Positions 48,657 through 50,216 of a DNA stretch of 53,724 bases are shown here, piece after piece. Each line of letters starts with the position of its first letter. The first letter of the stretch is position 1. The stretch spans positions 1 through 53,724 of the forward strand of contig JAPPES010000039.1 in NCBI GenBank assembly GCA_028824125.1. Reading direction: 5' to 3'. A program made the position numbers and the translations under genes. This DNA comes from Candidatus Poribacteria bacterium. Its GTDB lineage: Bacteria; Poribacteria; WGA-4E; WGA-3G. The notes beneath the pieces are model-generated. The model had not been told where the DNA came from, did not search any database, and was given only the letters and a program-made list of their open reading frames with translations.

Positions 48657-50216
48657 TTACTGAACTGTGCCGTTAGAATTTTCTTCTACAGAAATTTTTG
48701 CCAGAAATGCGTTGATACACATTTCCCCTTCGTCCCAATATCCGGAAGCACCCAACTTAAAACGTTGCCCTCGCTCAAAACGATATGTAATCTGTCTTGT
48801 ATCACCGGGTTCACCCCACGTTCCAGTAAGGGCATCCTTCGGTTCTTCTTCATCTATAGAAAGTTCGCCATCCTCGTCAAATAGATAAAACTCACCGTCA
48901 CCTCTATCCCTTCCGATTTTTATATCAATAGTAAGTGTTCCGCCGCTTTCAAAAGAAGTGACATCAATCACGACAACTGTGTAATCTAAATAACCGACAG
49001 TTGGCGTCCGAAAAACGTCCAGGACCTCCTCTGAAGGATGTTCATGGGTGAGAACAATGTTCCCTAATCCAGGCTGTTTTCCTTCCAAAGCATCCTTTAG
49101 AAATATCTGGTAATATTCTTTTGGAGGGAGTATTCCAGGTCCGGCGTTAACTTCAAGTTCACAAATCTGTTTTTTTCCCATCAGTTCAAATTCGGGTGAT
49201 ATAACGTAACTATCTACTGGCGAACCTTTTTGGGATCCGGTCTTCCATCCCTTCATGATGGCTTGTGCCAAAGGGTGTGTTGTGTCAAAAGGTTTGTCTT
49301 CGCGCTGACGTTTTTTGGCAATCGGTTCCCGTAAACTACGGGTACGTCCCAACTCAGAGTTGGAAACCCATGTATTGATGAAATGTCTGTTCAAAAATTC
49401 AATAATTGCGTCTCTTGAGAGGACACCTGCCCTCAGACCTTTGCCACTCGCTCAGCAGGATTCATCAAAGAGCGGTCCATCTAATAGGACCACGTGAATC
49501 GGTTTTTGCTGTGCCGGTGCCAATTCCAAAGCCTCCTCCAGCGATACCCAACTAATTTGTACTGAATTGTAAAAACAAAGTATCAGTGCCCGTTCAGCTT
49601 CTTCTTGTGTGATTGACGCGGTGAATTCTACATGATCAGGTAGTGTCCCTGTGCAAAGTTCCATTTGAGGACAATAGCCGAGTTCGGAACCTATTGTATC
49701 CCAATAAGCATCAAAATTCAGCGTGCCATTAGGCACATGCATCTGAAAGAATATGATTTCTTCTTTAATTCGGTTAATGACGAGATGACCAGCAAACTGA
49801 GAAGGTGTGAACCTACCACCTTCTAAGGAAAATTCTGCATGAATGCGAAACACAATGTCAGCAAAGTCATCGTTGTAGGCGCGCAAACATGCCCACAAAC
49901 CGAGAGAATCCCCATTATTGATATCTATATCCAAGTTTGGCTTTGGATTAAGCTGCCTTAGTAATTCCAGCACGCCATCTTTTTCAATCTGCCAGCATTC
50001 ACCCACCAAAACAGATTCCGATGGCAGAAATCCTTGAAAAATTGACGCGGCATACTGCTTTTCTGGTTCAGCAACTTGCAGATTTGCCAATGCATCCCAT
50101 TCTACATGGTAGTTGAATTGGGTGTACTCAATCGGTGCGATGGAACCTTTGACAGACACCTCTCTGTCCCCGTTAAGATTGAGTGCGATTCTTTCCTTTT
50201 TTGATAGAGTGTTCAT
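48657..50216 (-). CDS. Selenoprotein N-like protein with in-frame TGA (putative selenocysteine)
   Basis: Two open frames, 50216-49452 and the stretch to 48657, are in the same phase and separated only by TGA at 49452-49454. Read as selenocysteine, the product has 519 residues with Sec255, in the context DESC-U-ASGKGLRAGVLS. Homology to animal SelN is visible on both sides: FRIHAEF (123-129), FTPSQFAGH (136-144), LGYCPQMEL (179-187), ISWVSLEEAL, then HVVLLDGPLFDESCU, where human SelN has a DDQSCUGSGRTLRE block, and IIEFLNRHFINTWV after it. The SCU site sits in a thioredoxin-like region. The C-terminal 200 residues are beta-rich and include an EF-hand-like loop DEDGELSIDEEE (447-458). No signal peptide or membrane helix, unlike the ER-anchored animal protein. 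Likely co-transcribed with trmD (27 bp) and rplS (25 bp). Without the Sec machinery only a 254-residue fragment would form. Confidence 0.88.
49410..49438 (-). promoter_or_regulatory. Candidate bacterial SECIS hairpin after the TGA
   Basis: Starting 14 bases after the TGA, GUCU-GAGG, loop GCAGGUGU, CCUC, a UCAAG bulge and AGAC form a stem-loop. The apical loop carries a GGU as in the fdhF SECIS (loop AGGUCU), with its GU 26-27 bases after the UGA, inside the window normally seen for bacterial SECIS elements bound by SelB. An alternative pairing UGAGGG/CUCUCA uses the same loop. Hand-folded only. Confidence 0.65.

Follow-up and report, generated by a model that had tools for sequence, protein, structure and literature searches.

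A stretch of 53,724 nucleotides from the genome of a Candidatus Poribacteria bacterium (assembly GCA_028824125.1, contig JAPPES010000039.1, positions 1 to 53,724; hereafter the window) carries on its minus strand, at 48657..50216, a gene that is very likely a Poribacterial selenoprotein N (SelN), whose UGA codon 255 would be read as selenocysteine (Sec) by the organism's own machinery and whose Cys-Sec pair likely works as a thiol reductant. Read from 50216 to 48657 with TGA as Sec, the frame gives 519 residues followed by TAA, and it contains exactly one in-frame TGA, at codon 255 (49452..49454), in the context DESC-U-ASGKGLR; the preceding codon (49455..49457) encodes Cys254, the predicted partner of Sec255, which is invariant in the 49 rows of alignment A4. 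An earlier note on this DNA had described the TGA as the sole interruption of a 519-codon frame, placed immediately behind a Cys codon and splitting the gene into two open reading frames, and all of this holds once the frame is read on the minus strand, which the note had left unstated; the plus-strand reading of the same interval is full of stops. Standard gene calling yields one frame at 49452..50216 (254 residues) and another at 48657..49394 (245 residues), and hides this SelN because the gene is cut at the UGA. The 3' half may in addition have an internal start.

The TGA recurs throughout the family. It was found at all 92 sites in the loci L024 and L030-L067 and, in a larger set of distinct 93-nt contexts, in 148 out of 152, the other four having Gly (GGA or GGC). 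The Gly form is confined to one group of genes, 70-87% identical, in which eight genomes have TGA and four have Gly; a fifth genome of that group without a stop at the site (G055) gave no separate context. As a replacement at the Sec site, Gly, observed in DNA, is commoner than Cys. The residue after Sec is Gly in 121 and Ala in 27 of the 148 TGA contexts. Selection is purifying on both sides of the UGA: comparisons of the window copy with eight relatives of the CUASGKGLR type rendered ratios of nonsynonymous to synonymous substitution rates (dN/dS) of 0.13-0.27 before the UGA and 0.13-0.31 after it, with dS reaching about 1.6 or more in the two remotest of the eight. The earlier note had considered that the TGA might be a sequencing error, which is very unlikely because the codon recurs in so many contexts across many assemblies, or a real stop, which is contradicted by the purifying selection behind it together with a conserved hairpin; the homologues with a Sec codon at position 255 that it proposed to look for do exist.

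That hairpin, GAGGGC-AGGU-GUCCUC (49419..49434, minus strand), has an apical loop beginning 23 nt after the UGA, and is predicted to be the bacterial selenocysteine insertion sequence (SECIS) of the gene. With the T of TGA numbered 0, its stem joins positions 20-25 with 30-35 in six pairs, all of which are possible in 135 of the 148 TGA-bearing genes, as compared with 5.9 genes on average, and never more than 13, across 200 control sets with synonymous codons. The 16 letters of the window hairpin are those of the commonest type (68 of the 148 genes), and the loop is AGGU in 93 genes and AGUU in 46. Codon choice is strongly constrained within the hairpin, where Arg is AGG or AGA in 148/148 genes (30% elsewhere) and Leu is CTC in 145/148 (19% elsewhere); pair (23,32) is G-C in 109 genes and A-T in 16, and pair (20,35) is G-C in 142, C-G in one and A-T in one. 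Over 88 copies the folding-energy z-score averaged -1.23 at the site, whereas the averages at six control offsets, each computed from 87 or 88 copies, lay between -0.11 and 0.37, although the case rests on the family-wide pairing test and not on plain folding energy. These results indicate that the predicted SECIS is under selection at the RNA level. Its loop presumably resembles that of Escherichia coli fdhF.

The genome to which the window belongs (5.59 Mb in 162 contigs, 94.4% complete) contains a full set of genes for Sec synthesis and insertion. As the earlier note had proposed to check, selA (611.4 bits), selB (349.8 bits), selC and selD (369.3 bits) are all present; the single tRNA-Sec over the cut-off (80.1 bits, anticodon tca according to ARAGORN) adjoins selB. 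The selD gene (L028, G000:C40:806-1732) is a further selenoprotein gene: its frame contains a TGA in the context KCAG-U-ASKLAPGEL. SelA and SelB have also been described in most of the sponge-symbiont bins of PMC5649159. In the proposed mechanism, SelA, SelB, SelC and SelD of the same genome would supply Sec translation, with SelB binding the hairpin through its AGGU loop and delivering Sec at UGA 255, a decoding that the sequences let us predict with great confidence. The Cys254-Sec255 pair would then reduce oxidised thiols of partner proteins, cycling between a selenolate/thiol and a selenenylsulfide form.

The relationship with animal SelN was assessed with a 301-residue C-terminal part of human SELENON, a stand-in whose letters were not taken from a database record. 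In this stand-in Sec stands at position 462 of 590, with R291, R466 and a G at 315. The variants p.Arg291Gln, p.Arg466Gln/Trp and p.Sec462Arg, listed in PMC8967691, and c.943G>A, cited in PMC12839072, agree with these residues, the last with the G at codon 315. The disease residues R291 and R466 (PMC8967691) align with R124 of the window protein, invariant in 49/49 rows, and with K259, which is nearly invariant. The human part was matched by profile A2 with E=2.1e-48 and by profile A4 with E=3.6e-49 (nominal database of a million), Sec falling on Sec, while none of 500 shuffled versions of it was reported. Two collinear blocks match, the first lying ahead of the thioredoxin-like part (FRIHAEF...PQMEL) and the second surrounding Sec. 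In BLASTP, all 125 full-length proteins of the family matched the human part, the weakest at about 3e-14 (in a database consisting of those 125); the best identity was 36.8% over 223 columns (L049:552), and that of the window copy 33% over 215 columns. The identification as SelN made in the earlier note is supported by the profile match on both sides of Sec, and the blocks that it had listed (FRIHAEF, FTPSQFAGH, LGYCPQMEL and HVVLLDG) are all found in the window protein. It had also placed the TGA at the position of Sec in the SCUG motif of animal SelN, in agreement with the alignment of Sec with the human Sec; in one detail the window copy departs from that motif, reading SCUA. We regard the kinship of the window gene with SelN as almost certain, and the SelN family as probably not an animal invention.

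In an AlphaFold2 model the window protein has three parts: a predominantly beta N-terminal portion of the SelN core (residues 1-200, 49617..50216, as assigned by DSSP), a predicted thioredoxin-like domain that also has structural matches (residues 219-380, 49077..49562), and a predicted C-terminal beta-sandwich tail (residues 390-512, 48681..49049), all encoded on the minus strand. Cys254-Sec255 is placed by the model between the strand 240-245 and the helix 259-267. The predicted fold of residues 219-380, as well as that of a minimal relative, is like those of DsbH, DsbD-gamma, AGR2/AGR3, ERp19 and UAS domains. Several of these have CXXC or CXXS sites, whereas in SelN the C and U are adjacent; the likeness is one of fold only. 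No entry named SelN appeared among the PDB structural matches listed, and residues 1-200 were barely covered by the structure searches. By sequence, the window protein rendered no match in Pfam, NCBIfam or PDB, nor did its relatives P0002 and P0026 in Pfam or NCBIfam; a single match of profile A2 in PDB, with E=0.7, was taken as chance. The window copy starts MNTLSKKERIALNLNGDREV, with no hydrophobic stretch and hence without the single N-terminal transmembrane segment of the animal form. By a crude count, 62 of the 125 full-length proteins do have a hydrophobic N-terminus, so that about half of these proteins are probably extracytoplasmic.

Several observations weigh against the interpretation as a Sec-containing SelN with reductase function. 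The human letters used in the comparison were those of a stand-in and not of a database record. One or more of the six pairs of the hairpin are missing in 13 of the 148 genes, seven of which carry the loop GGGU and might form a stem in a different register; all four Gly genes keep the six pairs, two of them with the loop AACU; and the free energy of the 48 nt of the window copy is ordinary, 55 of 100 synonymous controls being as stable. The presence of selA over the cut-off does not separate genomes with SelN (56/64) from those without (15/20). Eight genomes have SelN but no selA over the cut-off (G027, G029, G032, G034, G047, G059, G060 and G076), among which G059 and G076 hold pieces, and G034, at 95% completeness, lacks a clear selA while its SelN bears the TGA. 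P0018, a database relative outside alignment A4, has Ser in place of Cys254 and Gly in place of Sec, and in the record of P0026 the Sec site is occupied by Trp, so that not every member of the family can use a Cys-Sec pair; P0149 has Cys at the Sec site as read from the protein letters only, the codon not having been seen. No EF-hand loop was found in the 125 proteins with a simplified pattern, nor was there a Pfam match for it, so that the calcium-sensor role of the animal protein is not transferred to bacterial SelN. The reductase function, which is proposed from the modelled fold and the motif only, is moderately likely.

In one alternative reading, translation truly ends at the TGA, or else the codon is a sequencing error or the mark of a decayed gene, the 3' half being dead or separately translated, for instance from a TTG at 49394. 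The splitting by gene calling and the many database proteins that are halves (e.g. P0010 and P0114) fit this possibility, but the presence of TGA in 148 of 152 contexts, with purifying selection on both sides in eight comparisons, the conservation of the hairpin at synonymous sites, and the Gly versions that are read straight through make it extremely improbable. We give equally little credit to a genome-wide reassignment of UGA, or to leaky readthrough inserting Trp: the Trp in the P0026 record speaks for it, but UGA terminates 36 of the 121 full-length TGA-bearing SelN genes, including three of the five in the genome of the window, and a complete Sec machinery accompanies the SECIS hairpin. 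Only slightly less remote is the idea that this is another thioredoxin-like selenoprotein family, of the DsbH/UAS/AGR2 type, in which a CU motif became SelN-like by convergence. Structurally, the Sec domain does come closest to DsbH, AGR2/AGR3, ERp19 and UAS domains, and by sequence neither Pfam nor NCBIfam matches the protein and PDB does not do so significantly; on the other hand, two collinear blocks jointly match the human stand-in sequence with E=2.1e-48, Sec on Sec, and all 125 full-length proteins match it in BLASTP.

A further alternative concerns the origin of the gene and not its identity, and is compatible with its being a Poribacterial SelN: a transfer of the gene, in either direction, between hosts of the sponge type and their symbionts may connect the animal and Poribacterial proteins. 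In a tree of 57 rows the family forms two deep clades, and the human row joins clade B (the split of human plus B is starred, 100/99), which includes the sigma-fused form described below and several proteins with hydrophobic, lipobox-like starts, three others lacking them (L105, L118 and L121). A survey published in 2012 includes the sponge Amphimedon among the organisms with SelN (PMC3473315), and a 2020 paper counts SelN, by its EF-hand, with the components that the calcium system of the endoplasmic reticulum gained at the origin of animals (PMC7016017). However, this position of the human protein depends on a single row, that of the stand-in sequence, with a branch of 1.81 that the program flagged as unsure, in a tree whose root is arbitrary and in which neither other eukaryotes nor other bacterial phyla were sampled. 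We consider transfer a possibility to be kept in mind, with odds somewhat below even.

A scan of 84 genomes of the phylum gave matches to the SelN profile in 64, at 455 places in total and up to 18 in one genome; they were found in all 58 genomes of the window's own family, in 2/2, 4/9 and 0/3 genomes of families f2, f3 and f4, and in none of the 12 outside the order. Every row among the matches listed has an in-frame TGA, its position not having been checked for each, and two other sets of rows have TGA in 26/27 and in 23/30, the remainder being pieces or Gly-type. A scan of named genomes with six short patterns of the window protein, by which relatives in other phyla could be missed, rendered 38 loci, all in Candidatus or uncultured Poribacteria, the nearest (L030) being 92% identical; 26 of them hold at least two SelN genes in the fetched stretch and 12 hold one. 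No eukaryotic SelN stood among the best 120 of 323, of 905 or of 1855 matches in protein searches, and the organism names, where given among the listed protein matches, were Candidatus Poribacteria, most rows having no name. The genome of the window has four more SelN genes on another contig (L024, G000:C44:37486-44213), in tandem and almost end to end, 60-64% identical to the window copy, with the Sec motifs SCUGSG, SCUGSG, SCUGTG and ACUGSG and with three TGA stops and one TAG. Two of its five copies pair in the tree with a copy of another species at starred support, and the others do so more weakly; because copies pair across species, the paralogues appear to be older than these species.

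Two further observations concern the family. Genome G060, 96% complete and with no selA over the cut-off, has four SelN sites (L186, L191, L195 and L198), of which one is Gly-type, one frame-shifted, one cut short and one intact with TGA and a hairpin-like stretch; this is suggestive of decay of SelN in that genome, the sites being too few to count. The protein P0109, a partial relative of 375 aa with 59% identity over 42% of the query, bears the GenBank name 'BrnA antitoxin family protein' and is probably a product of splitting at the TGA.

Part of the family is associated with extracytoplasmic function (ECF) sigma factors. The tail domain of the window protein is shared with the ECF sigma protein P0331 (42% over 151 columns, E=9e-31 in the whole-protein comparison; BLASTP with the tail alone gave no match). 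Unlike such C-terminally extended sigma factors, the window copy lacks a sigma domain, and its N-terminus is not hydrophobic. Matches to an ECF sigma protein like that of L039 occur in 19 of the 38 loci. Among 26 such matches, seven were traced to tail-bearing frames (L039, L053, L056, L057, L058, L060 and L066), the tails being 56-100% identical to that of P0331, while the remaining ones ran off the end of the locus, came out as tiny frames or were left untraced. The sigma match of L039 begins 56 nt past the SelN stop; on the same strand as SelN and downstream of it, L039:6036-7403 and L057:5975-7333 each encode an ECF sigma protein that bears the tail domain of SelN. Moreover, P0149 is a fusion of an ECF sigma factor, a hydrophobic segment (judged by eye) and SelN, and four relatives (L154-L157, in G063, G064, G073 and G076), 85-86% identical to it, fuse sigma and Sec-containing SelN in one frame, with TGA in [AD]ESCU[GA]TGK and the hairpin behind. 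Because some SelN proteins adjoin or are fused to ECF sigma factors, part of the family could report redox state to transcription, a tentative proposal to which we give less than even odds. More speculative still, and in our opinion improbable as a whole, is the following scenario. SelN would be the redox sensor of a transmembrane transcription control in Poribacteria, with sigma inside, one membrane segment and the Sec domain outside, sometimes in one polypeptide; the SelN of the animal endoplasmic reticulum, of the same topology, would have been taken from such a protein with an EF-hand added; and the copy of the window lineage would have moved into the trmD-rplS row, where a shortage of selenium would cause a stop at the UGA, leaving about 800 nt of untranslated message and throttling L19, so that the selenium supply would set ribosome production.

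The window copy is indeed placed in a row of translation genes on the minus strand, in the order ffh, rpsP, khpA, trmD, SelN, rplS, rnhB, yraN. The gene trmD (50244..50978; Pfam tRNA_m1G_MT, 2.9e-63) lies 27 nt upstream of SelN and rplS, encoding L19 (48287..48631; Pfam Ribosomal_L19, 3.9e-47), 25 nt downstream; khpA, rpsP and ffh (51000..53179) form the upstream part of the row, and rnhB and yraN (UPF0102; 47268..48309) its downstream part. This placement was found in only one of the 38 loci, L030. The lack of a hydrophobic N-terminus and the place in the ffh-rplS-rnhB row make the window copy probably cytosolic and co-transcribed with the translation genes. Beside the ribosomal row there is a Transposase_31 (YhgA-like) gene (46157-47035), and further away in the window are the genes for cytochrome bd oxidase subunits I and II (41798-44216) and for a DUF5117/DUF4953 met-zincin protein of 886 residues (38533-41193). 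At gathering scores, Rfam rendered no match anywhere in the window.

Within selenoprotein N, the Poribacterial family forms a bacterial branch whose SECIS, added domains and copy numbers are its own. In the openly licensed literature no report of a bacterial SelN was found, subscription papers and preprints lying outside that scope, so that a prior mention is possible. SelN is not among the 119 prokaryotic selenoprotein families of the table in PMC13188914 (2026), the examples that the paper gives of families shared with eukaryotes being SelD, GPX, deiodinase-like and SELENOW-like proteins and MsrA. With it, the catalogued prokaryotic selenoproteome would gain a family, at one to eighteen places per SelN-bearing genome, and Sec chemistry would become linked with sigma factors. 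Because the bacterial branch separates the SelN core from the EF-hand, the ancestral task of SelN was likely redox and not calcium-related. Defects in SelN cause human muscle disease, and according to a 2020 paper no structure of the protein had been solved (PMC7474598); the bacterial members number in the hundreds, which allows deep alignments, and they offer 360-residue minimal forms for structure determination as well as natural substitutions of the Sec residue.

A comparable case is that of the SelO-like bacterial selenoproteins identified with deep-Sep (PMC12013277), which were also thought to be eukaryotic and then found with Sec in bacteria, although they are a different family with a different chemistry, and SelN does not appear in the main text of that paper. 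Compared with animal SelN, the bacterial proteins share the S-C-U-[G/A] motif and the thioredoxin-like part around Sec, and some of their forms are hydrophobic at the N-terminus, as in the animal protein, whereas others are not. Unlike the animal form, they have no EF-hand, often bear an added C-terminal beta domain, which in the case of the window protein has no counterpart in the human stand-in sequence, and are present in many copies per genome. The SECIS is located inside the coding region, behind the UGA, in bacterial SelN, whereas that of animals is located in the 3' untranslated region (PMC8967691).
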